From Actinocorallia herbida (GTDB taxonomy: Bacteria > Actinomycetota > Actinomycetes > Streptosporangiales > Streptosporangiaceae), in contig NZ_RJKE01000001.1 of assembly GCF_003751225.1 (NCBI RefSeq), positions 3,348,001 to 3,412,000 of the forward strand: a stretch of 64,000 nt of DNA. Direction: 5' to 3'. The translations under genes and the position numbers were made by a program. The notes beneath the pieces are model-generated. The model did not search any database and was not told where the DNA came from. It saw only the letters and a program-made list of their open reading frames with translations. Positions 7,837-25,025 of the stretch are shown here, one piece after another (position 1 is the stretch's first letter; every line of letters starts with the position of its first letter).

Positions 7837-7854
7837 TGACCAACTATTTGCTCC
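7837..7854 (+). promoter_or_regulatory. Operator-like site a (18-bp near-palindrome)
   Basis: The site reads TGACCAACTATTTGCTCC and differs at two fixed positions from the consensus GGANCAANNATTTGGTCC built from five further sites up to 25 kb. It overlaps the -35 hexamer of the gene at 7883 and lies just upstream of mntH. It is the only copy outside the catabolic island and one of the weaker matches. Confidence 0.5.
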
Positions 7855-7876
7855 ATATTCGGGAGTGGGATACGTT
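7848..7876 (+). promoter_or_regulatory. Promoter for the leaderless gene at 7883
   Basis: A TTGCTC -35 at 7848-7853, a 17-base spacer and a TACGTT -10 at 7871-7876 place the transcription start at about 7883, exactly on the GTG start codon. This predicts a leaderless mRNA. The -35 lies inside operator-like site a. Confidence 0.55.
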
Positions 7877-7882
7877 CGTGGA

Positions 7883-8341
7883 GTGCCTACCGCAGTGATC
7901 CGGGTGATCGTCGACGCCGAAGGCGCGCTGACCCGAGCAGAGTACGAAGCGGGAATCGGGCGGCTCGCCGCCCTCGACCTCGAGGTCATCGCCGCCCCCG
8001 GCGCGCGCCTCGCCGACCGCCGCCGCGAGATCGAGTTCATCGCGGAAGACCTCGACCAGGGCCGCTCGGCCCAGGACTACGCGGACCTGTGCGTGTCCGC
8101 CTTCGGCCTCCCCGCCGAACTCGGCGTCACCACGTACATCAGCCGCGGCACCGACGACGACGCCCTCGGCGTGCTGAACCGCTTCGGCGTCGTCGCCGAC
8201 GTCACCCGCAGCTACACCGACGACGACGAGCTGGTGACGGTCACCATCGCCCGCGCCGAAAGCCGCCGGGTCCCCGAAAGCCGCCTCCACACCGCCCTGG
8301 AGGCCGCCCTCAACTGCGAAGTCCGCATCCGCTTCGCCTGA
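7883..8341 (+). CDS. Conserved-looking protein of unknown function, leaderless
   Basis: This 152-residue acidic soluble protein begins at GTG (PTAVIRVIVDAEGAL). The longer frame upstream is antisense to mntH and is ignored. I recognise no domain; the alternating beta/alpha pattern and the repeated acidic DDD stretches (TDDDALG, YTDDDELV) are the only visible features. No ribosome site precedes the GTG, and a promoter positioned to start transcription on the GTG makes leaderless translation likely. It diverges from mntH and shares its control region, including an operator-like site, but no function follows from that. Confidence 0.7.
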   Translation: MPTAVIRVIVDAEGALTRAEYEAGIGRLAALDLEVIAAPGARLADRRREIEFIAEDLDQGRSAQDYADLCVSAFGLPAELGVTTYISRGTDDDALGVLNRFGVVADVTRSYTDDDELVTVTIARAESRRVPESRLHTALEAALNCEVRIRFA

Positions 8342-8465
8342 CCCCGCCCCCGAACCCCCGACCTCGCCGGAACGTTCCGGCTCAAGACGGCCGGATCGGG
8401 ATGGACGCGCTCGGACGCCGTGTCCGCCGCATTCGGCTCCGGGCGGCCTCTTCCGGGCGGCGCTC

Positions 8466-9752
8466 TCAGCGGCGGGGGGTGAGGAAGCCGCGGAGGAGGG
8501 AGCCGCGGAGGAAGGCATGGGTCCGGGGGGCGCTGGTGCGGCCGAAGTCCTGGTAGGGGAGCCAGACGACGGCGCGGACGTGCGGGCCCAGCTGGCCCGG
8601 GTCGCTGATGGGGCGGACCGACCGGTCCGCGATGCCCTGGGTGAGCAGCCGCTCCAGGAGGCGGAAGCGATTCTGGGTCTGCTCGAAGTACTCCTGGAAG
8701 GGGGCGCTGGGGGCGCGGAGGCCGCGGGAGCTGAACTTCACGATGTCCGACTCCTGGCGGAAGCGGCGCTTTCCGTGCACGAAGACCAGCGCGAACGCGT
8801 CGACCGAGGCGGCGACCGAGGTACCGGTCGTCAGGACGCTGCGCAGCGCCAGGTCCATGCTCGAGGTGTAGCCGCCGAGCACCTCCTTGAGGAGCTCCTC
8901 CTTGGAGTCCACCCTGCGGTAGAGCGTGCCCATCCGCACCTCCGCGGCCTCGGCCACGTCGCGGATGGTGGTGGCGCTGTAGCCGCGTCGGGCGAACTCG
9001 GCGCGGGCCGCGGCGATGATGTCCTCCCGGGTGCCCGACCCGGTGGGCTCGTGCAGGGCCGGCCACTCGGCCATCGCCGCGCGGGCCGCATGCATCGCCG
9101 CGGAGTCGTCCAGGGTCCGGTCGTCGGGGCAGTCGGTGACCAGCCCTTCGAGCAGGAGGTCGCAGGTCTGCCGCGCGATGTGCACGGCGTCGGCCTGGGA
9201 CGGCACGTTCAGCGCCGCGTTGAGCGTGAGGTGGTGCAGGGCGAAGCGCAGCAGCCCGAGATCGCGGGCGCGCGCCTCCGACGCGGGGACCAGGCCCTCG
9301 GTGGCCCGCTTCCACACCTTCTCCAGCGCGGGCGCCTGGAGCTTGAGCGCGGTGCGGAAGCGCTCGGTCGCCACGCTCGGCGCCTCGTAGGAGTAGAGGC
9401 GCAGGGCGGCGCGGCTGCGGATGGACAGCTCCGTCACCTCGCGGGCGACGTACCTGAGCCGTTCCTCCGGCCCGCCGTCGATCGAGGTCAGCCGCCGCGA
9501 CGTCTTCGCCGCCAGCGCGCTCAGCTCCTGGTCCAGCTCCGTGAGGATCTCGACCGCGATCTCCTCTTTCGCCGCGAAATGGTGGTAGAGGCTGCCGGGC
9601 AGGATCCCCACCGCGTTGGCGATGTCGGTCATGGTGGTCGCCGAGTACCCGGAGACGGCGAAAAGGCGCGCGGCCACCCTGCGGATCTCGTCGGTCCGCT
9701 GGCGCGAGACCGGGGATGCGGCGGCGTCGACCAAGCGAGACGACGTAGTCAC
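8466..9752 (-). CDS. Regulator with two tandem TetR domains
   Basis: This 428-residue protein contains two complete TetR-type DNA-binding domains: about residues 21-66 (GYSATTMTDIANAVGI, SLYHHFAAKEE) and about 242-288 (GYSATTIRDVAEAAEV, TLYRRVDSKEE). Each is followed by its own helical ligand/dimerisation region. Ordinary TetR repressors are about 200 residues with one such domain. The GTG at 9752 is chosen because a CATACT -10-like box lies seven bases upstream, again suggesting a leaderless start; the longer upstream frame crosses the operator. It diverges from the PucR gene and is the best local candidate to bind the 18-bp sites. Confidence 0.85.
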   Translation of the reverse strand: MTTSSRLVDAAASPVSRQRTDEIRRVAARLFAVSGYSATTMTDIANAVGILPGSLYHHFAAKEEIAVEILTELDQELSALAAKTSRRLTSIDGGPEERLRYVAREVTELSIRSRAALRLYSYEAPSVATERFRTALKLQAPALEKVWKRATEGLVPASEARARDLGLLRFALHHLTLNAALNVPSQADAVHIARQTCDLLLEGLVTDCPDDRTLDDSAAMHAARAAMAEWPALHEPTGSGTREDIIAAARAEFARRGYSATTIRDVAEAAEVRMGTLYRRVDSKEELLKEVLGGYTSSMDLALRSVLTTGTSVAASVDAFALVFVHGKRRFRQESDIVKFSSRGLRAPSAPFQEYFEQTQNRFRLLERLLTQGIADRSVRPISDPGQLGPHVRAVVWLPYQDFGRTSAPRTHAFLRGSLLRGFLTPRR

Positions 9753-9823
9753 GGAACCAAGTATGCCCCCTCGGCGACGCGTGGTGACACCCGATCCGGT
9801 CGGTCGCGACCAAACGTCCGATC

Positions 9824-9841
9824 GGATCAACTATTTGGTCC
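9824..9841 (+). promoter_or_regulatory. Operator-like site b between the TetR and PucR genes
   Basis: GGATCAACTATTTGGTCC, a complete consensus match with inverted halves GGATCAA and TTTGGTCC. It sits in the divergent control region, about 72 bp upstream of the tandem-TetR start and 78 bp upstream of the PucR start, as expected for autoregulation. A half-site-like GACCAAACGTCC lies nearby at about 9809. Confidence 0.7.
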
Positions 9842-9918: not shown

Positions 9919-11613
9919 GTGCGCGAGGGTGCGGCGGTTCTCGCCGACGTCGGCGGCGGCGGTCCGCGACGGTCGGGGACGGGGACGAGACCGGCAGACG
10001 GCCTCGGATCCCTCACCATCGCCGACTTCCTCGCGCTGCCCCTGACGGGCGAGGGACTGCCCGCGGTCCTCGCGGGCGCCGACGGGCTCGGCCGGAGCAT
10101 CCGGTGGGTGCACGTGCTCGAACTCGCCGACACCGAGGGCCTGCTCCAGGGCGGCGAGCTGATCCTCACCACGGGCATCGCGCTGCCCCAGGAGCGCGCC
10201 GAGATCAGGGCCTACATCGACGGGCTCGTCGCCCAGCGCGTCGCCGGGCTGGTGATCGAGCTGGGCCGCCGCTACGCGGAGGTGCCGCCGGTGATGGTCC
10301 GCGCCTGCGAGCGCAGGGGCCTGCCGCTCGTCGCGCTACGGCGCGAGGTCCCGTTCGTCAGGCTGACCGAGGCGGTCCACTCCGCGCTCATCGACGGCCA
10401 GCGCGAGCTGCTCCAGCGGACCGCCGCCGCGCACGAGCGCTTCACCGCGCTGACCCTCGCCGAGGCCCCCGCCGAGGAGCTGGTGCGCGCGGCGGCGGAG
10501 CTGGCCGGGGGGCAGGTCGTGTTCACCGACCGCCTGCACCGCCTCCTCGCGCTGGACGCCCGCGACGGCTCCGCGGAACTGCTGCTCGGCCGGTGGCGCC
10601 GCCGCACCCGCACCCTCGCGCCCGCCGTGGGCGCGGAGGCGGACGCCGAGAGCTGCTCGGCCACGGCTCCGGTCCAGGCGCGCGGGCGCGGCTGGGGCAG
10701 GCTCACCCTGTTCACCGCGCACCCGCCCGGTCCCGCACAGCTCATGGTCCTGGAGCGCGCCGCCGCCGCCCTGGCGATCCGGCTGCTGATCGAGGGCGAG
10801 GACGAACTCGTCGCCAACGCGCGCCGGTCGGTGCTCGCCGACATCATCGCCGCGCGGCACGGCTCGCCGGAGGCGGTGCACGCCCGCGCCGAGGCGCTCG
10901 GGCACCCCACCCGCGACCGCACCTACCTCCCGCTCGTGGTGCTCGGCGCCGGCGCGGACCTGACCGAGCCGGTGCGCGGCGCGCTGGCCGACACCCGCCT
11001 CCACGCCCTGCACGGCCCGTTCGTCGCGGACCGCTGGGGCGTCCTCCTGCTGCTCCGCGACGATCAGTCCGACGAGCACGTCGACGCGTTCGCGCGCGGC
11101 CTCCACGCGAGGTGCGCCGACCTCGGCCTGCCCCCGGTGACGATCGCGGCAGGGGGCGCGGTGACCGACTTCCCCGGTGTGCGTCCCGCGTTCGGCGAGG
11201 CCGCCGACGTCGTGCTCGCCGCCAGGGCGGGCGGGCCGCACAGCAAGCCGCGTTCCTGCCACCGCATCCAGGACATCCGGCTCCGAGGGCTGCTCTACAC
11301 CCTGCGCGACGACCCGCGGCTCCAGGCGTTCGCCGAACGCACCCTGGGCCCGCTGCTCCTCCGCGACGCCCGGGACGGTGGCGGCCTCGTCCGCACGCTC
11401 GCCGCCTACCTCGGCCTCCGCGGCAACAAGTCCCTCGCGGCCCAGGAACTCGGCATCTCGCGCCCGACGCTGTACGAGCGCCTGGCCCGGATCCAGCGCC
11501 TGCTCCAACTGGACCTCGACGACCCGGAGGCGGCCACCTCGCTCCACGCGGCGATCATGCTGATCGAGACGCGCGCCGCGGGCCCGTCCGAGGATCCGGT
11601 CTTCGCTTCCTGA
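9919..11613 (+). CDS. PucR-family transcriptional regulator
   Basis: This 564-residue protein has the PucR layout. An N-terminal sensor domain (about 30-140) contains DGLGRSIRWVHVLELAD and GGELILTTG. A central GGDEF-like region follows. A C-terminal PucR helix-turn-helix (about 490-550) contains LGLRGNKSLAAQELGISRPTLYERL. These regulators activate purine, amino-acid or aromatic catabolic genes in response to a metabolite. The GTG at 9919 has GGAAGGGAG seven bases upstream. The hydrolase at 11654 follows 40 bp later in the same direction. It diverges from the tandem-TetR gene across operator-like site b. Confidence 0.9.
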   Translation: MREGAAVLADVGGGGPRRSGTGTRPADGLGSLTIADFLALPLTGEGLPAVLAGADGLGRSIRWVHVLELADTEGLLQGGELILTTGIALPQERAEIRAYIDGLVAQRVAGLVIELGRRYAEVPPVMVRACERRGLPLVALRREVPFVRLTEAVHSALIDGQRELLQRTAAAHERFTALTLAEAPAEELVRAAAELAGGQVVFTDRLHRLLALDARDGSAELLLGRWRRRTRTLAPAVGAEADAESCSATAPVQARGRGWGRLTLFTAHPPGPAQLMVLERAAAALAIRLLIEGEDELVANARRSVLADIIAARHGSPEAVHARAEALGHPTRDRTYLPLVVLGAGADLTEPVRGALADTRLHALHGPFVADRWGVLLLLRDDQSDEHVDAFARGLHARCADLGLPPVTIAAGGAVTDFPGVRPAFGEAADVVLAARAGGPHSKPRSCHRIQDIRLRGLLYTLRDDPRLQAFAERTLGPLLLRDARDGGGLVRTLAAYLGLRGNKSLAAQELGISRPTLYERLARIQRLLQLDLDDPEAATSLHAAIMLIETRAAGPSEDPVFAS

Positions 11614-11653: not shown

Positions 11654-12556
11654 ATGGCAGAGATAGAGGTCAACGGCGGCATCGTCGTCTACGACCTGAT
11701 CGGGCCCGAGGACGGAGAGGTCCTCACCGTCACCCCCGGCGGCAGGTTCAGCAAGGACTACCCCGGGGTGCGCCCGTTCGCCGAGGCGCTGGCCGACCGC
11801 GGCAAACGCGTCCTGATCTGGGACCGGCCGAACACCGGCGCGTCCGACGTCCAGCTGTACGGCAGGTCCGAGTCGCACATGCGGGCCGAGACCCTGGCGG
11901 GCATCGTCACGCGGCTCGGCCTCGGGCCCGTGGTCGTGCTCGGCGGCTCCGGCGGCGCCCGTGACTCGATCGTCTTCGCGATCGAGTACCCGGAGCTGGT
12001 CCGCAAGCTCCTGGTCTGGTCGATCGTGGGCGGCGCGTTCAGCTCGATGAGCCTCGCCAGCGTCTACGTGCTCGACGAGATCAGGACGATCCGGCGCGGC
12101 GGCATCGACGGCATCCTCGCCCTCAAGGGCAAGGCCGGCAGCTGGTCCGACCTCGTGCGGGCCAACCCGCGCAACCTCCAACGCCTGCGGGACCTCGGCG
12201 CGGCGGAGTTCGAGCGGGTCATGTGGCGGTGGTTCGAGGCGTACGTCCCCAAGGCGACCGAGGCGATCCCCGGCGTGGCCGACCACGAGATCCGCGGCAT
12301 CGACGTGCCGACCCTCATCGTGCGCGGCGGCGAGGCCGACATCGACCACCCCAAGCGCACGTCCTTCGAGGTGCACGCGCTGATCCGGGGCTCGCGGCTG
12401 ATCGAGCCGCCGTGGCCGGAGGACGCCTGGGAGCGCGCGCAGGAGGCGCGCGACGCGGGCAAGGGCGGCATCTTCGACCCCTGGTTGAAGGCCGTGCCGA
12501 CCTTCCTGGACTTCATCGACGAGCCCGTGGAGCCCGCCGAGGGGGCCGCGCCGTGA
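11654..12556 (+). CDS. Alpha/beta-hydrolase
   Basis: This 300-residue alpha/beta-hydrolase-fold protein has the nucleophile elbow VVLGGSGGARD with Ser99, a preceding oxyanion-side segment VLIWDRPNTGASD, and a C-terminal acid region PTLIVRGGEADID. I do not see the usual Gly-His motif for the catalytic histidine; the segment reads RLIEPPWPEDAW, so catalysis is uncertain. The ATG has AAGGAGAAGG just upstream. It follows the PucR gene and precedes operator-like site c, so it may be cotranscribed with the regulator. A role as an ester or C-C bond hydrolase in the island is inference. Confidence 0.8.
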   Translation: MAEIEVNGGIVVYDLIGPEDGEVLTVTPGGRFSKDYPGVRPFAEALADRGKRVLIWDRPNTGASDVQLYGRSESHMRAETLAGIVTRLGLGPVVVLGGSGGARDSIVFAIEYPELVRKLLVWSIVGGAFSSMSLASVYVLDEIRTIRRGGIDGILALKGKAGSWSDLVRANPRNLQRLRDLGAAEFERVMWRWFEAYVPKATEAIPGVADHEIRGIDVPTLIVRGGEADIDHPKRTSFEVHALIRGSRLIEPPWPEDAWERAQEARDAGKGGIFDPWLKAVPTFLDFIDEPVEPAEGAAP

Positions 12557-12597: not shown

Positions 12598-12625
12598 TTG
12601 AGCCATACTGGCGGAGCAATAATTT
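12598..12625 (+). promoter_or_regulatory. Promoter of the amidohydrolase operon
   Basis: A TTGAGC -35 (12598-12603), a 16-base spacer and a TAATTT -10 (12620-12625). The -10 lies inside operator-like site c, so a protein bound there would block RNA polymerase. This geometry argues for repression. Confidence 0.6.
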
Positions 12626-12630
12626 GGTCC
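12613..12630 (+). promoter_or_regulatory. Operator-like site c, upstream of the amidohydrolase operon
   Basis: GGAGCAATAATTTGGTCC, a complete consensus match with halves GGAGCAA and TTTGGTCC. It is 11 bp upstream of the first in-frame ATG of the amidohydrolase gene and overlaps the predicted -10. Confidence 0.7.
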
Positions 12631-12640: not shown

Positions 12641-13738
12641 ATGACCGAGATGAATGAGGCAGCCATGACCACTGCGGCGGGCCACCCGAAGGTCGACGCC
12701 AGCGTCCACCCGTTCTTCAGATCGGACGCCGACCTCCGCGAGTACCTCGGCGAGCCGTGGGCCAGCCGGGGCTTCCCGACCCCGGACGTCACGTTCACCG
12801 CGCCGCTCGGCAACCGCTACGCGCCCGGCACCAAGCCCGAGGACGGCGCCCACCCCGGCTCCGATCCCGACCAGACCGGGCGGGCCGTCTTCGACGAGCG
12901 CGGCTTCGACTACGCGATCCTGCACCCGATGACGGTCGGCATGCTGCCGGACTGGCACCTGGAGTCGGCGATCCTCGAGGCCGCGAATCGGATGCTGGTC
13001 GAGCGCTGGCTGGACTCCGACACCTATGGCGGCCGGTACTTCGGGACGATCCGCGTCAACCCGAACGACCTGGACTCCGCGGTCAAGGAGATCCAGCGCT
13101 GGAAGGAGCACCCCCGGGTCGTCCAGATCGGCCTGCCGATGCAGACGCAGGCCCCGTACGGCCGCCCGCACTACAAGCCGCTGTGGCGCGCCGCGTGCGA
13201 CGCGGGCCTGCCGGTCGCGATCCACTGGGAGATGGGCCAGGGCATCACCCACCCGCCGACGCCCTCGGGACCGGCCCGCACGTACCAGCAGCTCGTCGGA
13301 TTCCAGCCGCTGACGTTCGTCTACCACCTGATGAACATGATCGCCGAGGGCGTGTTCGAGGAGTTCCCCGACCTCAAGGTCGTCTTCGCCGACGGTTCGG
13401 CCGACATGCTCACGCCGATGATCTGGCGGATGGACACCTTCGGCCGGCCGCACCTGGAGCAGACGCCCTGGGCGCCCAAGATGCCCAGCGACTACCTGCC
13501 GGGGCGCGTCCACTTCGTCAACGGGCTGCTCGACACCCCCGGCGACGTCCCCTTCGCCGCGGAGTGGCTCCGCATGACCGGCAAGGAGGACATGCTCATG
13601 TTCGGCTCCAGCTATCCGGACTGGCAGCTCGCGACGGTCGAGTCCCTGCCGTCCGGCTGGACCGCCGAGCAGCGCGAGAAGGTCCTGTGGCGCAACGCCG
13701 CCGACCTCTACCGGCTCCCCGTTCCCGCGACCGCCTGA
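12641..13738 (+). CDS. Amidohydrolase-2 family protein, catalytic motifs degenerate
   Basis: This 365-residue TIM-barrel protein is clearly related to the next gene but has lost key metal-site residues. The N-terminal motif is DASVH (D19-H23) where the neighbour has DCDVH. The segment VFADGSADML replaces VFIEHAFSWI. The C-terminal motif is SSYPDW where the neighbour has SDYPHW. The barrel His in VAIHWEMG remains. It is therefore likely inactive or altered, and may be a structural partner of the intact paralogue. The start could be 12641, 12653 or 12665; the last has GAGG at good spacing. Operator-like site c and a -10 overlap just upstream. Confidence 0.85.
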   Translation: MTEMNEAAMTTAAGHPKVDASVHPFFRSDADLREYLGEPWASRGFPTPDVTFTAPLGNRYAPGTKPEDGAHPGSDPDQTGRAVFDERGFDYAILHPMTVGMLPDWHLESAILEAANRMLVERWLDSDTYGGRYFGTIRVNPNDLDSAVKEIQRWKEHPRVVQIGLPMQTQAPYGRPHYKPLWRAACDAGLPVAIHWEMGQGITHPPTPSGPARTYQQLVGFQPLTFVYHLMNMIAEGVFEEFPDLKVVFADGSADMLTPMIWRMDTFGRPHLEQTPWAPKMPSDYLPGRVHFVNGLLDTPGDVPFAAEWLRMTGKEDMLMFGSSYPDWQLATVESLPSGWTAEQREKVLWRNAADLYRLPVPATA

Positions 13739-13778: not shown

Positions 13779-14927
13779 ATGACGCAGATGGACATCCGCC
13801 AACTGAGCAGCAGTGAGATGTCGCCCGTGCGGGTCGTCGACTGCGACGTCCACCCGTACCCGCGCCGCGGCGTGATGCACCAGTTCCTCGACCCCAAGTT
13901 CGTCAAGGAGCAGCGGCTCCGGGCCGAGGGCGCCAACAACGGCATCTTCTACGACGCCCCCGACTTCAACTTCGCCAAGGCGATGCGCGTCGACTCCTTC
14001 CCCAGCGACGGCGAGTTCGCCTGCACCGACCCGCACATGGCGTTCCGCCAGCTCGTGCTGGACTCCGGCTCCGACGTCGTCATGCTGGGCCCGACCTCGG
14101 GCGGCATCGGCGACACCGACGAGGAGGTCTCCGCGATGGCCGCGGCGACCAACCTGTGGCAGGAGGCGTGCTGGCTCGACCCCGAGAACAACTGGCACGG
14201 CCGCTACTTCGGCTCGATCTGCGCCAACATCTCCGAGCCCGACGTCGCCGCCCGCGAGATCGAGAAGTGGGCCGGGCACGAGAAGTACAAGCAGGTCCTG
14301 ATCCACGCCGAGCCGCGCCCGGCCTGGGGTCACCCGAAGTACGACCCGGTGTGGGCCGCCGCGGTCAAGCACGGCATCCCCGTCGCCTGCCACCTCGGCC
14401 GCGGCAAGCACAACCTGCTGCCGATGAGCCCGGTCGGCTTCATGTCCTACAACCACGACTTCATGGTCACGTACTCGATGCTCGCCGCGAACCAGATCAT
14501 GAGCCTGGTCTTCGACGGCGTCTTCGAGCGGTTCCCGACCCTCCAGATCGTCTTCATCGAGCACGCCTTCTCCTGGATCCTGCCGCTGATGTGGCGGATG
14601 GACGCGATCCACGCGGCCCGCGGCAACGAGCTCGGCCTGTCCAAGAAGCCGTCGCAGTACGTCAAGGACAACATCTGGTTCACCACCCAGCCCCTCGACT
14701 ACCCCGAGGACAAACTGGAGCTCACCAACGCGCTGGAGTGGATGGAGGCGGACAAGATCATGCTGTTCTCGTCCGACTACCCGCACTGGACGTTCGACGA
14801 GCCGCGCTGGCTGGCCAAGCACCTGCCCGAGCCGATGCGCGACGCGGTGATGTACCAGAACGCCGTCGACCTGTTCAGGCTGCCGAGCCGTCTCCCCGCG
14901 CTCGCCGGGCAGGTCAGGGCGTACTGA
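13779..14927 (+). CDS. Amidohydrolase-2 family metal-dependent hydrolase/decarboxylase
   Basis: This 382-residue protein is the intact member of the pair: DCDVH (D21-H25), VACHLGRGKH, FIEHAFSWILP and SDYPHWTFD are all present. The family includes ACMSD, 5-carboxyvanillate decarboxylase and other enzymes that hydrolyse or decarboxylate ring or ring-cleavage acids through a zinc or manganese centre. It follows its paralogue by 40 bp with its own AGAGAGG ribosome site. Its stop overlaps the ATG of the Rieske ferredoxin by one base, so these genes form one operon. The substrate is unknown. Confidence 0.88.
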   Translation: MTQMDIRQLSSSEMSPVRVVDCDVHPYPRRGVMHQFLDPKFVKEQRLRAEGANNGIFYDAPDFNFAKAMRVDSFPSDGEFACTDPHMAFRQLVLDSGSDVVMLGPTSGGIGDTDEEVSAMAAATNLWQEACWLDPENNWHGRYFGSICANISEPDVAAREIEKWAGHEKYKQVLIHAEPRPAWGHPKYDPVWAAAVKHGIPVACHLGRGKHNLLPMSPVGFMSYNHDFMVTYSMLAANQIMSLVFDGVFERFPTLQIVFIEHAFSWILPLMWRMDAIHAARGNELGLSKKPSQYVKDNIWFTTQPLDYPEDKLELTNALEWMEADKIMLFSSDYPHWTFDEPRWLAKHLPEPMRDAVMYQNAVDLFRLPSRLPALAGQVRAY

Positions 14928-15316
14928 TGACCGACGGAACACGGCCCCGGCTGGCCCGGGGCCGGGAGCACATCGTCGCCACCGTCGACGAGATCGAGCC
15001 GGGGGACCACAGGGTCTTCCCGATCGGCAGGTACGGCGTGGGCGTCTACAACGTCAACGGCAGGTTCTACGCGATCGCGAACTACTGCCCGCACGAGGGC
15101 GGCCCGCTGTGCGTCGGCCGGACCAAGGGCCAGACCGTCGCGGACCCCGACCGTCCGGGCGGGGCGAAGGAGATCCGCGAGGGCGAGTTCATCTACTGCC
15201 CCTGGCACCAGTGGGGTTTCGAGCTCGCGACCGGGACGACCGCGGTCAAACCGGAATGGAGCATCCGCACCTACCCCGTGCGGGTGGAAGACGACAAGGT
15301 CATCGTGACGGCATGA
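14927..15316 (+). CDS. Rieske [2Fe-2S] ferredoxin-like protein
   Basis: This 129-residue cytosolic protein has one Rieske centre: C54-P-H56 in NYCPHEGG and C91-PW-H94 in YCPWHQWGF, giving Cys-His/Cys-His ligation of a 2Fe-2S cluster. An insertion of about 20 residues (GQTVADPDRPGGA) separates the two loops. Rieske ferredoxins pass electrons to ring-hydroxylating oxygenases. It lies between the amidohydrolases and a NuoF-like flavoprotein with start/stop overlaps on both sides. It probably takes electrons from the flavoprotein, although the oxygenase component is in the next transcription unit. Confidence 0.9.
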   Translation: MTDGTRPRLARGREHIVATVDEIEPGDHRVFPIGRYGVGVYNVNGRFYAIANYCPHEGGPLCVGRTKGQTVADPDRPGGAKEIREGEFIYCPWHQWGFELATGTTAVKPEWSIRTYPVRVEDDKVIVTA

Positions 15317-16617
15317 CGACGACAGCTGACATGACTCTCGGCATCGCGACGGCGGTCTACCCGGGAGCCGAACCCCGGCTGCTCGGGACCGCCGGGCGCG
15401 AGGACGTCCAGGCGTATCTCGCGCGCGGCGGCTACGCGCCGCTGCGCGACCCCGAGGCGCTGCTCGGGGCGGTCGAACGGGCGGGGCTGCGCGGCCGCGG
15501 CGGCGCGGCCTTCCCGTTCGCCAGGAAGGTCCGCGCCGTGCGCGCGGGCGTCGCGGCCCCCGTGCTGGTCGCCAACGGGGAGGAGGGCGAACCCGCCTCC
15601 GTCAAGGACCGCTGGCTGATGCGGCACCGCCCCCACCTCGTCCTCGACGGGGTCCGCCTCGCGGCCGCGCTCGTCGGGGCTCAGGACGTCTACCTCTACG
15701 TCTCCGACGCGGCGAGCGCGGAGAGCCTGGCCGAGGCCCTCGCCGCCTTCCCCGCCGAGGGGTGGAACGAGATCGCGATCCGGATCCACCGCGTCGAGCC
15801 CGCCTACGTCGCGGGGGAGGAGACGGCCGCGGTCCGGTCCATCGAGGGCGGCCCCGCGCTGCCGCAGGACAAGCCCCCGCGCCCGTTCGAGTCCGGTGTC
15901 GGCGGCCGGCCGACCCTGGTGAGCAATGTCGAGACCCTGGCGAACCTCCCGGCCGTCCAGCGGCTCGGCGCGGACGCCTACCGGGCGCTCGGGACCGACG
16001 ATTCCCCCGGAACGTTCCTGATGACCCTGTCGGGAACGTCGCGCGACGGACTCTACGAGATCCCCTTCGGCACCGGGCTCCGCGACGTGCTCGGCTGGCT
16101 GGGGGAGGACCCGGGAGGGGTCCGGGGAGCGCTGGTCGGCGGCTACTTCGCCGGCGTCATGAACGAGCGCGTCCTCGACCTGCCGCTCGCCTACGGCGCG
16201 TTCGCCGAGGCGGGCAGCGGCCTGGGCTGCGGCGGCATCGCGGTCATCGGCGACCGGGGCTGCCCGGTGGCCGTCGCGGCGGCCGTCATGGACTACTTCG
16301 CGCGGGAGAACGCGGGCCAGTGCGGCTCGTGCTTCAACGGCACCTCGGCGATGGCCGCCGTGCTCGACGCGCTGCGGGACCACCGGGCCGTGGCGGCCGA
16401 CCTCGAGCGGCTGCGCCACTGGGCGACCGACCTGCGCGGCCGGGGCGCCTGCGGCACCCTCGACGGCGCCACCAACGTCGCCGCGTCCCTGCTCAGGGAG
16501 TTCCCGAAGCAGGTCGACGGCCATCTCGACGGAGCATGCGGCACCTGCCCGGAGGCCGCCGCCGCGCTCGGCGACGCCCCCTACGCGGTGGTCGCGCACA
16601 AGGAGGGGGAGACATGA
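15313..16617 (+). CDS. NuoF-like NADH-binding flavo-iron-sulfur protein
   Basis: This 434-residue protein resembles the 51-kDa NADH-binding subunit of complex I and of formate/hydrogen dehydrogenase diaphorases. It has GLRGRGGAAFPFARK for NADH/FMN, NGEEGEPASVKDR, VSNVETLANLP, and a C-terminal CGSC cluster segment (GQCGSCFNG and GACGTLDGA) for one 4Fe-4S centre. No NuoE or NuoG partner is present, so it likely works as a stand-alone NADH:ferredoxin reductase. Its ATG overlaps the Rieske ferredoxin stop (ATGA), and its own stop overlaps the next ferredoxin. Confidence 0.88.
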   Translation: MTTTADMTLGIATAVYPGAEPRLLGTAGREDVQAYLARGGYAPLRDPEALLGAVERAGLRGRGGAAFPFARKVRAVRAGVAAPVLVANGEEGEPASVKDRWLMRHRPHLVLDGVRLAAALVGAQDVYLYVSDAASAESLAEALAAFPAEGWNEIAIRIHRVEPAYVAGEETAAVRSIEGGPALPQDKPPRPFESGVGGRPTLVSNVETLANLPAVQRLGADAYRALGTDDSPGTFLMTLSGTSRDGLYEIPFGTGLRDVLGWLGEDPGGVRGALVGGYFAGVMNERVLDLPLAYGAFAEAGSGLGCGGIAVIGDRGCPVAVAAAVMDYFARENAGQCGSCFNGTSAMAAVLDALRDHRAVAADLERLRHWATDLRGRGACGTLDGATNVAASLLREFPKQVDGHLDGACGTCPEAAAALGDAPYAVVAHKEGET

Positions 16618-17020: not shown

Positions 17021-18412
17021 ATGACGGTGACCGATCCGCGGCACGCGCGGGACATCGAGTCGGCTCTGGCACCGGGTCCGAACGGCCCCGAAGTCAACGC
17101 GAAGATCCCCTTCCCCATGAACGGCTGGCTGCGGGTCCCCGCCGACCGCTACCACTCGCGTGAGTTCTTCGAGCTGGAGAAGGAGAAGCTCTGGCCTCAC
17201 GTCTGGCAGATGGCCGCCCGCGAGGAGGAGATCCCGCACCCCGGCGACTTCGTCGAGTACGAGATCGTCGGCCAGTCGCTGCTGATCGTCCGCCAGCAGG
17301 ACGGCTCGGTGAAGGCGCTGCACAACGCCTGCCGGCACCGGGCGACCGAGCTGGGCAGCGGCTGCGGCCGCTTCCCCGGCGGCCAGATCGTGTGCCCGTT
17401 CCACGGCTGGCGCTGGAAGATCGACGGCTCGATCTCCCACGTGTTCGGCCGGGAGGGCTTCGACGCGGAGACCGTCCGCCCGGAGGACATCGCGCTGCGT
17501 GAGGCCCGGTGCGACACCTGGGGCGGCCACGTCTGGGTCAACCTCGACCTCGACGCCCCGCCGCTGCTCGAAGCGCTCTTCCCCGCCGCGAACATCCTGC
17601 AGCGCAACGGCGTCCAGCGGATGCGCGCCAAGTGGTGGAAGGAGACCATCCTCAACTGCAACTGGAAGCTCGCTCAGGAGGCGTTCTTCGAGGGCTGGCA
17701 CGTCAAGCAGACGCACCCGCAGCTCTACACCTACAAGGACGGCGCCGACAGCGAGACCAACCTGCAGAACACGGTCTACACGCCGTTCGTCAACGGCCAC
17801 GGCAGGTTCCAGAGCGGCGACGCCAAGGAGGGCTACGGCGGCAAGCCGGACTTCCTCCAGGCGGCCAGGCTCAACTGGTCCGGCCAGGACGCGATGACGC
17901 TGGAACGCGACATCACGGTCTTCGAGAGCGTCGCGGGCGGCATGGACACCAGCGACCCGGCGTACATCGCCAAGGCCTTCGACGCGCTGTACGACTTCTG
18001 GGAAGGGGCCGGGATCCCGGCGCCCGACCGCACGCCCGAGGTGCTCAAGATGTGGGGTGGGGACATCCACCTGTTCCCCAACTACCTGATGCTGCCGATG
18101 TACGCCAACAGCCTCGCCTACCGGGTCCGTCCGTACAACGACGACCCCGACTGGTGCAGGTTCGAGGTGTGGTCGCTGACCACCTACCCCGAGGGCGAGG
18201 ACCGCGGCCGGCTCGAGCTGTCGGGCCGCTTCGACAAGGACGACACCGACAACTGGGGCCTGATCCCGCGCCAGGACTTCGCCAACCTCGAGCGGATGCA
18301 GCGCGGCATCAAGAACCGGTCGCTGAAGGAGATCCGGCTGTCGGAGAAATGGGAGGCCACCATCGCCAACATGCACCAGGAACTCGACCGCAGGCTCGCG
18401 GCCGGCTCCTGA
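17021..18412 (+). CDS. Rieske non-heme iron oxygenase, large (alpha) subunit
   Basis: This 463-residue oxygenase has the Rieske domain C104-R-H106 and C125-PF-H128, then the mononuclear iron region NWKLAQEAFFEGWHVKQTH with ligands H227 and H232. The aspartate that usually links the two centres is E224 here. Enzymes of this class hydroxylate or demethylate aromatic or alicyclic substrates with O2 and electrons from a ferredoxin. The ATG at 17021 has AGAGGAG eight bases upstream; the longer frame crosses the promoter. A small 2Fe-2S ferredoxin follows, and no beta subunit is seen. Confidence 0.92.
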   Translation: MTVTDPRHARDIESALAPGPNGPEVNAKIPFPMNGWLRVPADRYHSREFFELEKEKLWPHVWQMAAREEEIPHPGDFVEYEIVGQSLLIVRQQDGSVKALHNACRHRATELGSGCGRFPGGQIVCPFHGWRWKIDGSISHVFGREGFDAETVRPEDIALREARCDTWGGHVWVNLDLDAPPLLEALFPAANILQRNGVQRMRAKWWKETILNCNWKLAQEAFFEGWHVKQTHPQLYTYKDGADSETNLQNTVYTPFVNGHGRFQSGDAKEGYGGKPDFLQAARLNWSGQDAMTLERDITVFESVAGGMDTSDPAYIAKAFDALYDFWEGAGIPAPDRTPEVLKMWGGDIHLFPNYLMLPMYANSLAYRVRPYNDDPDWCRFEVWSLTTYPEGEDRGRLELSGRFDKDDTDNWGLIPRQDFANLERMQRGIKNRSLKEIRLSEKWEATIANMHQELDRRLAAGS

Positions 18413-18442: not shown

Positions 18443-18844
18443 ATGCCGTGGGTCAGGATCCAGCCCTCGGGCACCGAGTTCGAGGTCTTCGACGGCGAGG
18501 CGGTGGCCGAGGCGGCTTGGCGTCAGGGCCACGGCTGGCCCACCCAGTGCTGGGGGCAGGCCGACTGCATGTCCTGCTTCACCCGGATCCTCGACGGCGA
18601 ACTGTGCGCGCTCCCGGCCGAGCAGGACGAGCTCGACGCCGTCAGCCTGAAGATGAGCCCCCAGCTACGGAGCAATCATTTGATTCGGCTGGGGTGCAGG
18701 CTGCGCTGCGTCGGGGACGGACTCGTCCTGGAGAAGCAGGGATTCCGCCCCGCCGACCGCACCGGCGAAGACACCGCGGACCCCGCCGGACCGCCTCCCC
18801 CCAGCCCGGGCGCCGAAGCCCGGGCCGAACCAGGAAGAACATGA
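18443..18844 (+). CDS. [2Fe-2S] ferredoxin (plant/adrenodoxin-like) with proline-rich tail
   Basis: This 133-residue protein carries C36-x5-C42-x2-C45 and a fourth cysteine at C85 (RLGCRLRC), the spacing of plant-type 2Fe-2S ferredoxins. A 35-residue Pro/Ala/Glu-rich tail follows. GGAAGGAGG precedes the ATG. It lies 30 bp after the oxygenase and is its probable electron donor, the third ferredoxin in the island. Operator-like site e lies inside this reading frame, so it may share its sequence with a promoter for the genes after it. Confidence 0.88.
   Translation: MPWVRIQPSGTEFEVFDGEAVAEAAWRQGHGWPTQCWGQADCMSCFTRILDGELCALPAEQDELDAVSLKMSPQLRSNHLIRLGCRLRCVGDGLVLEKQGFRPADRTGEDTADPAGPPPPSPGAEARAEPGRT
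18669..18686 (+). promoter_or_regulatory. Operator-like site e, inside the ferredoxin gene
   Basis: GGAGCAATCATTTGATTC, two differences from the consensus. It lies about 160 bp upstream of the E1 alpha start, within coding sequence (codons for SNHLI). No convincing -35/-10 pair is visible, so an internal promoter is possible but unproven. It could also reflect chance. Confidence 0.4.
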
Positions 18845-18845
18845 C

Positions 18846-19850
18846 ATGACAGTGACCGATACCGGAGCGGTCGGGCTGGGCAGGGACCAGCTCACGACGC
18901 TCTACGAGACGATGTGCACGGCGGCGGCGCTCGACACGCGGCTGCTCAACGGCATCAAGCGCGGTGAGTTCGCCACCGTGACCTGGCCCTCGCGCGGCCA
19001 GGAGGCGATCCCCGCCGCGCTGGGCCTCGCCCTGCGCCCCGACGACCGCCTCGTCACCACCTACCGCGGCCTGCACGACCACGTCGCCAAGGGCGTGCCG
19101 CTGACCGAGATCATCGGCGAGGTGCTGGGCACGTCCGTCGGCGCCTCCAAGGGCAAGGGCGGCACGATGCACATCTCCGACCCCGCCCACGGCGTCATGA
19201 TGACGACCGGGATCGTCGGCTCCGGCGTGCCGGTGGCCGTCGGGCTGGCGCTCGCCGCGCAGAAGCAGGGCGGCGACCGGGTCACCGTGGTGACCTTCGG
19301 CGACGGCGCCACCAACACCGGATCGTTCCACGAGGGGGTGAACCTCGCCGCCACCTGGAAGCTCCCCGTGGTCTTCCTCTGCCAGAACAACCTCTACGCG
19401 GAGATGACCCCGGTCGAGGAGACGATGGCGATCCAGCACGTCGCCGACCGGGCGATCGGCGTCGGCATGGTCGGCGTGACGGTGGACGGCAACGACCCCG
19501 TGGCGACCTACCGGGTCATCAAGGAGGCGGTCGACCGTGCGCGCGCGGGCGGCGGGCCGACCCTGGTCGAGGCGGTCACCTTCAGGTTCGAGGGCCACTA
19601 CGCGGGCGACTCGGCCAAGTACATCCCGGCCGAGCAGCTGGCGGAGATGCGCGAGTACGACCCGATGGTCACCTTCCCTGTCACGCTGCTCGACTCCGGC
19701 TTCACCCGGGCAGAACTCGACGCGATCAAGGCGGCGGCCGAGCAGGCCGTCGAGGAGGCCGTGCGGACGGTCCTCGCCGCGCCCGCGCCCGACCTCGCCG
19801 AGATCCAGCTCGACGTCTACGCCGACGGATTGGTGGTCACCCATGACTGA
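18846..19850 (+). CDS. 2-oxoacid / acetoin-type dehydrogenase E1, alpha subunit
   Basis: This 334-residue thiamine-diphosphate enzyme subunit has the TPP/Mg motif starting G152-DG (FGDGATNTG) and ending at N181-N182. It also has KGKGGTMHI, which is typical of the heterotetrameric acetoin and pyruvate dehydrogenase E1 alpha family. E1 decarboxylates or cleaves a 2-oxo or 1,2-dicarbonyl compound and transfers the acyl group to lipoate. Its stop overlaps the start of the beta subunit by eight bases. The sequence resembles acetoin dehydrogenase AcoA as much as PDH, so the substrate is open. Confidence 0.9.
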   Translation: MTVTDTGAVGLGRDQLTTLYETMCTAAALDTRLLNGIKRGEFATVTWPSRGQEAIPAALGLALRPDDRLVTTYRGLHDHVAKGVPLTEIIGEVLGTSVGASKGKGGTMHISDPAHGVMMTTGIVGSGVPVAVGLALAAQKQGGDRVTVVTFGDGATNTGSFHEGVNLAATWKLPVVFLCQNNLYAEMTPVEETMAIQHVADRAIGVGMVGVTVDGNDPVATYRVIKEAVDRARAGGGPTLVEAVTFRFEGHYAGDSAKYIPAEQLAEMREYDPMVTFPVTLLDSGFTRAELDAIKAAAEQAVEEAVRTVLAAPAPDLAEIQLDVYADGLVVTHD

Positions 19851-20838
19851 GCAGAAACTGAGCATCCGCGAGGCCATCAACCAGGCTCTCGACGAGGCCC
19901 TGCGCACCGACCCGCGGGTGTTCCTCCTCGGCGAGGACCTCGCCGACCCCGCCGCCGGCGTCAACGCGGTCACCCGCGGCCTCGCCACCGCCTACGGCAC
20001 GGACCGCGTCATGAACACGCCGATCTCCGAGGCCGCGATCCTCGGCGCGGCGGTCGGCGCGAGCATGGAGGGCTACCTCCCGGTCGCCGAGATCATGATC
20101 ATGGACTTCATCGGCATCGCGATGGACCAGATCGTGAACCACGCGGCGAAGCTGCGGTACATGTCCGGCGGCCGGACCACCTGCCCGATCACCGTGCGGA
20201 CCTCGGTCTTCGCCGGGACGGGCTCGGGCGGCACACACTCCCAGTCCCTGGAGGCGTGGTTCATGCACGTGCCGGGGATCAAGGTCGTCTACCCGAGCAC
20301 CCCGGCCGACGCCAAGGGCCTGCTCCTGTCGTCGATCTTCGACCCGGACCCCGTCCTGTTCATGGAGGCCTCGCGCCTGTACGCGCTCAAGGGCCCGGTC
20401 CCGGAGGGCGACGGGATCCGGATCCCGATCGGCAAGGCCGACGTGAAGCGGGCCGGCCGGGACGTCACGATCATCAGCTACGGACTGGCGATGAGCCAGT
20501 CCCTGGAAGCCGCGAAGATCCTCGCCGCGGACGGCATCGAGGCCGAGGTCGTGGACCTCCGGACCCTGCTGCCGCTCGACATGGAGACCGTGCTGGCCTC
20601 CGTCGCGAAGACCCGCCGAGCCGTCGTCGCGCACTCCGCGACCACGGTGGCGGGGCCGGGCGCCGAGGTGGCCGCCCAGATCTCCGCGAAGCTCTTCCAC
20701 GAACTCGCCGAGCCCGTCCAGCGGGTCGGCGCCAAGTTCACCCCCATCCCCTCCCGCGCGTCCGAGGCCGCCGTGACGCTCAGCACCGGGGACATCGTCG
20801 CCGCGGCCCGCAAGACCATGGGAGCGGTACGTGTCTGA
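19843..20838 (+). CDS. 2-oxoacid / acetoin-type dehydrogenase E1, beta subunit
   Basis: This 331-residue transketolase-like subunit pairs with E1 alpha. It has LLGEDLADPAAGVNAV, the invariant NTPISEAAILGAAVGASMEG with the cofactor-activating Glu, GGTHSQSLEAWF, and the C-terminal domain with VVDLRTLLPLDMETV. It overlaps E1 alpha by eight bases and is itself overlapped by eight bases by the lipoyl-domain gene, so the three products should be made in equal amounts. Confidence 0.92.
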   Translation: MTEQKLSIREAINQALDEALRTDPRVFLLGEDLADPAAGVNAVTRGLATAYGTDRVMNTPISEAAILGAAVGASMEGYLPVAEIMIMDFIGIAMDQIVNHAAKLRYMSGGRTTCPITVRTSVFAGTGSGGTHSQSLEAWFMHVPGIKVVYPSTPADAKGLLLSSIFDPDPVLFMEASRLYALKGPVPEGDGIRIPIGKADVKRAGRDVTIISYGLAMSQSLEAAKILAADGIEAEVVDLRTLLPLDMETVLASVAKTRRAVVAHSATTVAGPGAEVAAQISAKLFHELAEPVQRVGAKFTPIPSRASEAAVTLSTGDIVAAARKTMGAVRV

Positions 20839-21073
20839 ACGAGTGTCGGTGGCCATTCCGAAGGTCGCGATGAGCGTCGAGGAAGCCGTGTTCGTCGAGT
20901 GGCTGGTGCCCGACGGAGCGACCGTGCAGGAGGGCGACAACATCTACTCGGTCGCGACGGACAAGACGGACGTCGACGTCGAGGCCGCCGCCTCCGGCGT
21001 GCTCCGGCACGGTACGGCCGAGCCGGAGGAGACCTACCCGGTGGGAACCGAGATCGGCTACATCGAGACATGA
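20831..21073 (+). CDS. Free-standing lipoyl-domain carrier protein
   Basis: This 80-residue protein is a single biotinyl/lipoyl domain: PKVAMSVEEAVFVEWLVPDG at the start and the lipoylation hairpin VATDKTDVDV with K45. There is no linker, no E1/E3-binding domain and no catalytic domain. It would carry the acyl group from E1 to the separate E2 catalytic protein at 22797 on the other strand. The GTG start overlaps the E1 beta stop by eight bases, and its own stop overlaps the next ATG (ATGA). This is a split version of the usual E2 architecture. Confidence 0.9.
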   Translation: MSERVSVAIPKVAMSVEEAVFVEWLVPDGATVQEGDNIYSVATDKTDVDVEAAASGVLRHGTAEPEETYPVGTEIGYIET

Positions 21074-22785: not shown

Positions 22786-22796
22786 TTCCGCTGTCG

Positions 22797-23552
22797 TCAG
22801 GCCGTGAGGTCGGCGGTGAAGTCGGCCTCTTCGAGGCGTTCCTTGACCCAGGTGAGGAAGCGGGCCGCGTCGGCGCCGTCGATGATCCGGTGGTCGTAGG
22901 TGAGCGCGAGGTAGACCATCGAGCGCAGCGCGATGGACTCGGCGCCGTCGGCGTCCCGGACGCCGGCGGGGCGGCGCACGACCGCGCCGGTGCCGAGGAT
23001 CGCCGACTGCGGCTGGTTGATGATGGGGGTGTCGAACAGGGCGCCCCGGCTGCCGGTGTTGGTGATGGTGAAGGTGCCGCCGGACAGCTCGTCGGCGGAG
23101 ATCGTGCCTGCGCGGGTGCGGGCGGCGACGTCGTCGATGCCGCGGGCCAGTTCCGCGATGGACCGCGCACCCGCGTCCCGGAGGACGGGCACGAAGAGGC
23201 CCTTGTCGGTGTCCACGGCGATGCCCAGGTGCTCCCCGTCGGGGTAGGTCACCTTGCCCGCCTCGATGTCGAGCGCCGCGTTGATCACCGGATGGACGCG
23301 CAGGCCCTCCACGACGGCCTTGGCGAAGAAGGGGAGGAAGGACAGCTTCACGCCCTCCCTGGCGAGGAACGCGTCCTTGTGGGCGGCACGGAGTTCGGCG
23401 ATGCCCGTGACATCGACCTCGACCACGGTGGTGAGCTGGGCCGACGTCTGAAGAGACGCCATCATCCGGGTCGCGATGATCTTGCGCAACCGGGACAGCC
23501 GGGTCGTCGTCCCGCGCAGCGGGGAGGGGGTGAAGGGGGCGGTCGTGGTCAT
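22797..23552 (-). CDS. E2 dihydrolipoyl acyltransferase, catalytic domain only
   Basis: This 251-residue protein consists only of the acyltransferase core of 2-oxoacid dehydrogenase complexes. It has [13 protein letters not shown] at the start, [23 protein letters not shown], and the active-site DHRIIDG near residue 222. The lipoyl domain and peripheral subunit-binding domain that normally precede this core are absent, and the free lipoyl protein at 20831 is the obvious substitute. It follows the E3 gene by 26 bp, with AGGA before the ATG. The acyl group transferred to CoA is unknown. Confidence 0.9.
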
Positions 23553-23578
23553 GGCTTCCTGTCTTTCTCGTCGGGGGG

Positions 23579-24961
23579 TCAGGCGTGGCCGTGCAACGGC
23601 TTGCCCGCGAGGGCGAGCGCCGCCTCGCCGAGCGCCTCGTTCTGGGTGGGATGGGCGTGGAGGAGCCCGCTCAGGTACTCCGGGGTCAGTCCCGCCTTGA
23701 CGATCAGCGCGGCCTCGCCGGACTGCTCGCCGAGCCGGGCGCCGATCATGTGCACGCCGACGATCGCGCCGCCGGGCCGCCGGACGAGCTTCACCATTCC
23801 GGCGGCGCGCAGGATCTGGCTGCGCCCGTTCCCGCCGAGGTCGTACTCGGCGGTCTCCGCCGCGCCGAACTCCTCGACGGCCTGCGGTTCGGTGAGCCCG
23901 ACGCTGACGATCTCGGGATCGCCGTAGGTGACGCGGGGGACGCCCAGGTCGTCGACGGGCTCGGGATCGAGTCCCGCGATCCGCTCGGCCACGAAGATGC
24001 CGTGCGCGAAGCCGCGGTGGGCGAGCTGGGGTCCGCGGACGAGGTCGCCGACCGCGTAGACGCCCGGGACGCCCGTGGCGAGCGACCGGTCGGTCCTCAC
24101 CCAGCCCTGGTCGGTGTCGATTCCCGCTTCCGCGAGCCCGAGTCCGTCGGTGAAGGGGGCGCGTCCGACGGCCACGAGGACGTGGTCGGCCTCCAGCTTC
24201 TCGCCGTTGCCCAGGACCACGGCCGCCCCGTCCTCGCGCTGCTCGACCGCGGTGACCGAGACCCCGGTCCGGACCGCGATCCTGCGCCGCCGGAACGCCC
24301 GGCCGAGCTGCTGCGAGATCGCCGGATCCTCCGCGGGCACCAGCCTCGCGGCCGCCTCGACCACCGTCACCTCGGCCCCGAACGAGCGCCACAGGCTCGC
24401 GAACTCCACCCCGATGACGCTTCCGCCGATGATGACGACGCGGCCGGGCACCTCGTCCAGCTCCAGGGCCTCCGCGCTCGTCAGGACCCGCCCCCCGATC
24501 TCCACCCCGGGCAGGGTCCGCGCGACCGACCCCGTCGCCAGCACGAGGTTCGCCCCCGTGTACCGGACCCCGCCGACCTCGACCGTCCGCCCGTCGACGA
24601 GCCGCCCTTCCCCCGCGACCCGCGTGATCCGCCGGGCGCCCCCGACCAGCCCTTGCAGCCCCTTGTGCAGCCGACCCACGGTCGCCTCTCTGAAACCCCG
24701 CACCGCCGCCATGTCGATCCCGTCGACCGTCCCCCTGACACCGATCGCCGCGCCCTCCCGCGCCTGGTCGGCGACCTCCGCGACGTGCAGCAGCGCCTTG
24801 GTCGGAATGCACCCCTGGTGCAGGCACGTCCCTCCGAGTTCGCCCTTCTCGATGAGCGCGACCTCGAGCCCGAGCTGCGCCGCCCGCAGCGCCGTCGCGT
24901 ACCCCCCGCTCCCGCCCCCGACCACCACGACATCGAACGGATCCGCCGTGAAACTGCCCAT
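23579..24961 (-). CDS. lpdA: Dihydrolipoamide dehydrogenase (E3)
   Basis: This 460-residue flavoprotein disulfide reductase has the FAD motif [13 protein letters not shown], redox-active C46 and C51 in [13 protein letters not shown], the NAD domain motif [13 protein letters not shown], and the C-terminal HAHPTQNE that supplies the His-Glu pair from the partner subunit. It reoxidises the lipoyl carrier with NAD. It is first in a two-gene operon with the catalytic E2, divergent from nothing but preceded by operator-like site f about 47 bp upstream. Confidence 0.93.
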
Positions 24962-25007
24962 GGAAACTCTCCTACCTGACTGGACCGGGGACGGCTCATG
25001 CTCTCAC

Positions 25008-25025
25008 GGAACAAAGATTAGGTCC
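25008..25025 (-). promoter_or_regulatory. Operator-like site f, upstream of the E3-E2 operon
   Basis: Plus-strand sequence GGAACAAAGATTAGGTCC, one difference from the consensus. Read on the minus strand it contains TAATCT, a plausible -10 for the E3 gene, so the site again overlaps the likely -10. No good -35 is visible at the expected distance. Confidence 0.6.

Follow-up and report, generated by a model that had tools for sequence, protein, structure and literature searches.

Which protein reads six copies of an 18-base pair (bp) near-palindrome spread over separate operons of one gene island, and what does it control there? The question is raised by a stretch of 64,000 nucleotides from Actinocorallia herbida (RefSeq assembly GCF_003751225.1, contig NZ_RJKE01000001.1), referred to here as the window, which covers positions 3,348,001-3,412,000 of a genome consisting of a single contig of 9,800,715 bases. 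The island encodes two candidate regulators, a tandem TetR protein of 428 amino acids (aa) and a PucR-family protein, together with the transporter MntH, two subunits (A and B) of a putative oxygenase with the amidohydrolase fold, a Rieske oxygenase and components of a dehydrogenase complex. A first-pass annotation, made from the sequence alone, had proposed that the six sites join the island into one circuit, with either regulator as the binder. The analysis presented here indicates that they are very probably the operators of the tandem TetR protein, encoded at 8466-9752, which would repress the island until released by an effector.

Occurrence of the sites in the window and the genome

A pattern scan of the window recovered all six sites, which are as follows (handles beginning with G denote other genomes, discussed below).

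7837-7854: putative operator site 1, between mntH (- strand) and the gene for a 148-aa protein (+ strand); also found upstream of the 148-aa gene in G289, G220, G482 and G569
9824-9841: putative operator site 2, between the tandem TetR gene (- strand) and pucR (+ strand); same place by the tandem TetR gene in G289, G482, G569 and G081a (two sites)
12613-12630: putative operator site 3, before the oxygenase subunit A gene; same place in G289, G482 and G569
16946-16963: putative operator site 4, before the Rieske oxygenase gene, covering the predicted -10 element; same place in G482
18669-18686: operator-like site 5, within the gene for a 2Fe-2S ferredoxin, some 160 bp upstream of the E1-alpha gene
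25008-25025: operator-like site 6, some 46 bp upstream of the E3 gene (- strand)

With up to three mismatches allowed, 11 matches were found in the window, as five of the six places were hit on both strands; 0.32 were expected from shuffled sequences, and none of 100 shuffles reached 11. As first described, five sites are intergenic and one lies in a gene: that at 18669 falls towards the 3' end of the ferredoxin gene (18443-18844), beyond the Fer2 domain. Across the whole genome, only ten places fit the motif with at most two mismatches, and six of these are the window sites, all within 17.2 kb. Three of the other four (L202, L204 and L205) are inside predicted genes, while the fourth is at 6088068. 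Eight places outside the island with up to three mismatches, a selection from all such places that includes the three in predicted genes, were inspected; every one had a score below 18 with the weight matrix described below, and on this basis a wider regulon beyond the island was set aside. A looser pattern, GGANCAANNNNTTGNTCC with two mismatches, was discarded as unspecific, having given 238 forward matches in the same genome against 308 for its reversed control.

It had also been claimed that the site covers the predicted -10 element at three promoters, and this was the ground on which repression was predicted. A consensus scan placed a -10 element inside a site at one promoter, that of site 4 (TTGAGA-17-AATATT, 16929-16957; one found, 0.5 expected by chance), and inspection of sites 2 and 3 by eye revealed no convincing -35/-10 pair inside the site. 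The claim of three overlapped promoters thus finds partial support. Repression appears likely by analogy with the protein families concerned, which also suggest that a pathway compound would bring about release.

Association of the motif with tandem TetR genes

A weight matrix was built from the six window sites only and made symmetric; a threshold score of 18 applies unless another is given. It was run over a first set of 15 stretches, covering nine islands from the initial searches, and over a class set of approximately 20-kb stretches around 32 tandem TetR loci from 29 genomes. Genes in these relatives were predicted with a crude composition-based caller, so that their starts are approximate. 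The tandem TetR is uncommon within the family, being found at an E value of 1e-30 or better in seven of 341 genomes, the source genome included; a profile search at 1e-40 found it in 31 of 394 sampled genomes of the class.

The matrix scan of relatives that the first-pass annotation had recommended detected 62 sites, distributed over 27 of the 32 class stretches, and 8 sites in six of the 15 stretches of the first set. By contrast, a single site was present in the control DNA, 20 stretches totalling 400 kb that were taken from 20 of these genomes, and a single site in 33 stretches (631 kb) around same-query relatives in named genomes; a profile search of the latter found only single TetR proteins of at most 231 aa. 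None of 200 matrix permutations that keep the palindrome reached the class count. When position 4 was masked and the threshold set at 16, a site was found in 31 of the 32 class stretches. The same gene caller marks 81% of the DNA as coding, yet 81 of the 83 sites then found were intergenic, and 75 of the 83 were within 300 bp of a predicted start. In the first set, six of the nine islands have sites scoring at least 17 (G289, G081a, G220, G357 and two in G043).

In genomes of one genus (f6/g40) the putative operator stands among genes for P450, short-chain dehydrogenase (SDR), NorQ/VWA-type and nitroreductase proteins, and a P450 related to that of the window is encoded in 17 of the 32 class stretches. 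A close homologue of oxygenase subunit B occurs inside just three of them (L159, L160 and L171) and is lacking from the other 29, that of G569 being located just beyond its stretch. A PucR homologue was detected at 1e-10 in only one of the 32, that of G569; at an E value of 1e-6, none was found in the stretches of G289, G220, G081a and G081b, nor in the listed part of G482. These distributions imply that the motif accompanies the tandem TetR whether PucR is present or absent, and in most cases where the oxygenase is absent. Hence, of the two binders originally put forward, the tandem TetR is the likely one because a PucR homologue is present in so few class stretches.

Within the family, four of 341 genomes encode a close subunit B homologue (at least 58% identity, the source genome included), and all four are among the seven with the tandem TetR. 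The genome G243 has a distant subunit B homologue (36%) with a regulator that is GntR-like by its first residues, lacks the tandem TetR, and reaches a best site score of 7.7; its distant oxygenase island (L212), which is without the motif, also has ABC-transporter genes as judged by sequence starts.

Conservation at homologous promoters

Sites 1 to 4 are conserved in other genomes. G482 and G569, from other families, have an island of the window type in which matching genes are 46-83% identical, and G289 and G220, from the window's own family, have parts of it; these four genomes represent three families, counting that of the window. Their sites at homologous promoters share 13-16 of 18 letters with the window sites, whereas the flanks of those sites share only 21-39 of 120 bases in an ungapped comparison. 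The variants in G081 are more divergent, with 9-13 of 18 letters identical. Together with the clustering in the genome and the matrix counts across the class, this conservation lends good support to the proposal of one circuit for the island. In G482 (L171:5507 and L193), extra sites precede a transporter gene and an aldehyde dehydrogenase gene, hinting at a wider regulon there.

Architecture of the putative operator

The motif had been reported as unrecognised, but its frame is that of the KstR2 operator: AnCAA-N4-TTGnT is matched in full by five window sites and in all but one letter by the sixth. The inner G..C of the KstR2 operator is absent from all six. The window form is GGANCAANNATTTGGTCC, and a more general oriented consensus, NGAACARATATTWGGTYN, was derived from the 31 clearly asymmetric sites among 44 distinct ones.

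If one head of a two-headed protein is of the KstR2 type, a preference for an asymmetric site of this kind is to be expected. Asymmetry was assessed in 63 distinct external sites (position 4 masked, threshold 16), counted once per distinct sequence and not per event. At position 4, a C differed between the halves in 45 of the 63, against 31.4 in shuffled halves (p 0.0008), and an A in 42, against 29.4 (p 0.0008). With the 47 sites at threshold 18, the corresponding values are p 0.009 for C and 0.006 for A. The asymmetry is strong within f6/g40.

Fold and kinship of the tandem TetR protein

Two TetR_N stretches lie in one 454-aa frame, and both domains are present in the 428-aa protein that was modelled. 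The predicted structure is a confident one (predicted local distance difference test 90.7; predicted template modelling score, pTM, 0.88), and its top match in the PDB is Mce3R, aligned over the full length (9b7y_A; 426 columns, template modelling scores 0.64/0.71, root mean square deviation 7.2), followed by single chains of KstR2 and a relative. Judging from the predicted model and its match to 9b7y_A, the two units would fold as one asymmetric pseudo-dimer.

Sequence profiles order these relatives differently. KstR2 is the closest solved relative (E 8e-34, with stretches in both halves), while the match to Mce3R is at 1.2e-17, with its best stretch limited to positions 12-98. Recognition helices could be aligned for 37 of 44 tandem proteins, the other seven having cropped starts or having been missed by the gene caller. 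The segment SLYHHF, as in KstR2, is kept in half 1 of all 37, and the corresponding segment of half 2 varies around YR. In the window protein, half 1 is identical to the DNA-binding part of KstR2 at 28 of 52 residues and half 2 at 23 of 52, and the two halves are identical to each other at 21 of 52. A KstR2-like single TetR gene with the same recognition helix is found elsewhere in the source genome (G000:C1, near 1027.7 kb).

A model of regulation can be proposed by analogy with these proteins. In a single polypeptide, two unlike TetR halves would fold together as a pseudo-dimer and bind the 18-bp pseudo-palindrome directly, with half 1, carrying the KstR2 recognition helix, probably placed on the AnCAA half and half 2 on the TTWGGT half. 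The bound protein would repress its own divergent promoter, the mntH and 148-aa genes, the AibH1H2-like oxygenase operon, the Rieske oxygenase operon and E3, and a pathway compound, probably held between the halves, would release it.

Genes of the island, the oxygenase and manganese

The genes of the island in the window are the following.

5009-6523, - strand: aldehyde dehydrogenase, MMSDH subfamily; the homologue in G482 has its own site
6602-7819, - strand: MntH, an Nramp Mn2+ transporter, above the MntH subfamily cut-off
7895-8341, + strand: 148-aa protein without known family, often retained with the island
8466-9752, - strand: tandem TetR regulator of 428 aa with two TetR_N domains, proposed binder of the sites
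9919-11613, + strand: PucR-family regulator, transcribed divergently from the tandem TetR gene with site 2 in between; homologue in G569
11654-12556, + strand: alpha/beta hydrolase
12641-13738, + strand: amidohydrolase-fold subunit A, AibH1-like position, three ligand positions altered
13779-14927, + strand: amidohydrolase-fold subunit B, AibH2-like, all six Mn/Fe ligands retained
14927-15316, + strand: small Rieske ferredoxin with a Rieske domain, AibG-like position
15331-16617, + strand: NuoF-like flavin mononucleotide oxidoreductase, proposed reductase
16614-16880, + strand: ferredoxin with a single 4Fe-4S cluster
17021-18412, + strand: Rieske oxygenase alpha subunit
18443-18844, + strand: 2Fe-2S ferredoxin (holds site 5)
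18852-19850, + strand: E1-alpha of a pyruvate/acetoin dehydrogenase type complex
19843-20838, + strand: E1-beta
20831-21073, + strand: free-standing lipoyl domain, 80 aa
21070-22740, + strand: dehydrogenase dependent on flavin adenine dinucleotide, of the 3-ketosteroid delta-1-dehydrogenase kind
22797-23552, - strand: E2 catalytic domain without lipoyl domain, 251 aa
23579-24961, - strand: E3, dihydrolipoyl dehydrogenase

Subunits A and B had been annotated as amidohydrolases, and a domain scan does assign both to PF04909. Their best PDB relatives are nevertheless AibH1H2 and the SfbO group, and the pair would be better read as an AibH1H2-type oxygenase. In an alignment to 6m1w_B, read by eye, subunit B keeps the six AibH2 ligands (D25, H27, H211, E265, D337 and H340), and the small Rieske ferredoxin adjoining the two subunits fits the published mark of such oxygenases. 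In subunit A, likewise read by eye, Ser replaces the first Asp, and the last Asp/His pair is represented by Ser and Asp. These are ligands that AibH1 retains, so the role of subunit A may be solely structural.

Site 1 and mntH, the only Nramp gene above the cut-off in the source genome, are 17 bp apart. The DPGN and MPH segments, which we take to be marks of Mn-type Nramp proteins, are present in the window MntH. The sole Nramp gene of G220 is in its island, as is the stronger of the two in G289, and the two genomes of the same genus that lack the island have no Nramp gene. A co-regulated supply of manganese for the oxygenase, with mntH included in the regulon for that purpose, would be an attractive but unproved interpretation of this arrangement.

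Several other features of the region deserve mention. The gene for the 148-aa protein is present in seven of the nine islands that hold the oxygenase pair, and an alignment of five sequences contains a near-invariant RRVPESRLHTALEAALN stretch. A search for Pfam or NCBIfam relatives of this protein found none, its best PDB relative has an E value of only 0.23, and no convincing fold match was obtained with a poor model (pTM 0.50). In L159 and L160 (G689 and G483), the oxygenase pair and the 148-aa gene are near a P450-type tandem TetR island, with sites elsewhere near the tandem TetR. The E2 component appears to be split between the free lipoyl domain (20831-21073, + strand) and the catalytic domain (22797-23552, - strand). 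Just beyond site 6, at 25088-28117 (- strand), is a gene for a large protein with AAA_11/AAA_12 helicase and PLD-like domains, which has weak matches to defence-type helicases. A second oxidative cluster follows at 28944-36950, comprising a P450 identified with Pfam and a ferredoxin, reductase, SDR and aldehyde dehydrogenase identified by sequence starts; no site with a score of at least 13 was found in this cluster. P450 and SDR genes related to it adjoin the tandem TetRs in G043.

Alternative explanations

Other explanations for the sites can be weighed against operators of the tandem TetR. The PucR-family protein (9919-11613) might bind them, as an activator or a repressor of the island, as its gene begins beside site 2, and in G569 a 52%-identical PucR occupies the same place, a site separating it from the tandem TetR. 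However, sites are also present in G289, G220, G081a and G482, where no PucR homologue was found (in the case of G482, in its listed part), and between 27 and 31 of the 32 class stretches have sites when just one has a PucR homologue, making this quite unlikely. A single TetR protein, such as the KstR2-like regulator near 1027.7 kb, could alternatively be the binder, leaving the tandem TetR as a bystander or competitor. The shared operator frame and the recognition helix common to KstR2, half 1 and that regulator are consistent with such an arrangement, which is nonetheless quite unlikely given that none of the six sites has the inner G..C, and that the sites cluster beside tandem TetR genes, a single one having been detected around the single TetR relatives.

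The positions of mntH and a probable Mn/Fe oxygenase, both downstream of sites, could also be explained by a metal-regulator box of the MntR or Fur type, tuning enzyme and transporter to metal supply. Against such a box stand the concentration of six of the ten closest genome matches in the island, and the occurrence of sites in g40 genomes next to tandem TetRs in the company of P450, SDR and other genes; no metal regulator is among the scanned predicted genes between 5.0 and 25.0 kb, and this explanation is very unlikely. As short near-palindromes are common in control DNA, the sites might finally be ascribed to chance, or to the remnant of a mobile or structural repeat. The excess of matches over shuffled sequence and the failure of every permuted matrix to reach the class count both argue against this, and conservation at homologous promoters with unalike flanks contradicts it, such that it can hardly be credited.

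Operators of the tandem TetR remain the preferred explanation for the sites, and the locus is best read as a catabolic island held by a repressor that a pathway compound would relieve, with Mn uptake perhaps coupled to an oxygenase that uses Mn. A number of observations weigh against it. Sites 5 and 6 were not found conserved elsewhere, and site 5 was not seen at the E1 genes of G482. The G081b island has only weaker variants, before the tandem TetR (score 13.2) and before the subunit A gene (8.2); in the first set, no site was found in the islands of G356 and G033 (the latter a 6.4-kb contig), nor, with position 4 masked at threshold 16, in the class stretch L142. Many class stretches come from the one genus f6/g40, so the counts are not independent and overstate the independence of the evidence. 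In G689 and G483 (L159 and L160), the oxygenase pair lies a few kilobases from the tandem TetR without a preceding site of score at least 13. The asymmetry of the operator is weak outside f6/g40 at threshold 16 (C, 17 of 28 against 12.9, p 0.09; A, 17 against 12.0, p 0.03) and at threshold 18 (p 0.22 and 0.09, respectively); position 4 was picked after ten tests of position and letter, of which A at position 2 also gave p 0.02, and site 1 of G289 is symmetric at position 4. As regards manganese, mntH adjoins only three of the nine islands holding the oxygenase pair, and the Nramp genes of G081, G482 and G569 are located elsewhere. Such genes are also common in the family (220 of 341 genomes), which makes an Nramp gene a weak mark of the island, and it was rejected as such.

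A more specific interpretation combines these elements: a widespread tandem KstR2-like TetR subfamily, apart from Mce3R, would use an inherently two-faced operator (AnCAA and TTWGGT, one for each of its unlike heads), which in this island would switch on an AibH1H2-type Mn/Fe monooxygenase together with the only Nramp Mn2+ importer of the genome, so that production of the enzyme coincides with delivery of its metal. This is offered as a tentative proposal, somewhat more doubtful than not, and confidence in it was lowered slightly by the oxygenase pairs of G689 and G483 that lack a site.

Comparison with known systems

Double-TetR regulators, KstR2-type operators and AibH1H2-type oxygenases are each already known. 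According to the accessible part of PMC11667970, which cites 204 putative double-TetR regulators in Actinomycetes, Mce3R was the first to have a structure, and its mapped operator is without a palindrome. Searches of the openly licensed literature yielded no copy of the motif, no published account of the g40 gene set, and no subfamily of tandem KstR2-like proteins that has a conserved pseudo-palindromic operator of its own; the accessible part of PMC4482099 lists motifs for 30 mycobacterial TetR genes, whose logos were not compared for the motif or the subfamily.

AibH1H2, a Mn/Fe monooxygenase, and SfbO are amidohydrolase-related dinuclear oxygenases, as described in the accessible parts of PMC7782822, PMC10401708 and PMC10811679. 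The window resembles the AibH1H2 system in having paired amidohydrolase-fold subunits beside a small Rieske ferredoxin, with all six AibH2 ligands in subunit B, but differs in having a NuoF-like reductase instead of AibF, an additional 4Fe-4S ferredoxin, and altered ligands in subunit A relative to AibH1. In the part of PMC7782822 that is accessible, the published aib cluster has the LysR-type regulator AibR, and mntH is not in its table; term searches of PMC10401708, PMC10811679 and PMC12141560 did not find MntH or Nramp.

KstR2 is a TetR repressor of cholesterol genes whose operator is given as AnCAAGnnCTTGnT in the accessible part of PMC3068626. It is the closest relative by profile, has the SLYHHF segment of half 1 and shares the operator frame with five of the six sites, but it is a single unit of about 200 aa, compared with 428 aa and two units in the window protein, its operator has the inner G..C that is missing here, and its target genes are different. 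The likeness to Mce3R of Mycobacterium tuberculosis (PDB 9b7y), a repressor as is proposed for the window protein, consists of two unlike TetR/helix-turn-helix units in each chain and the match over 426 columns, although identity in the structural match is about 18%. The Mce3R site, as the accessible text of PMC11667970 describes it, is 25 bp long, non-palindromic and present in pairs 53 bp apart, and it controls mce3 and lipid genes. A further consideration against the proposed model is that the operators in the window differ from this in being 18-bp pseudo-palindromes, mostly one per promoter, with a catabolic oxygenase island as their target. Given the operator of Mce3R, the window protein was not classed as an Mce3R orthologue, and the tandem TetR subfamily would seem to read DNA in its own way. 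It would thus represent a second double-TetR subfamily, with a short, conserved and searchable operator through which its targets may be found by genome scanning, and could provide a system for studying how one two-headed chain reads DNA. The island itself is suggestive of catabolism through a pathway based on AibH1H2-type oxygenases, which are little known, and of a testable link between such an enzyme and manganese import.

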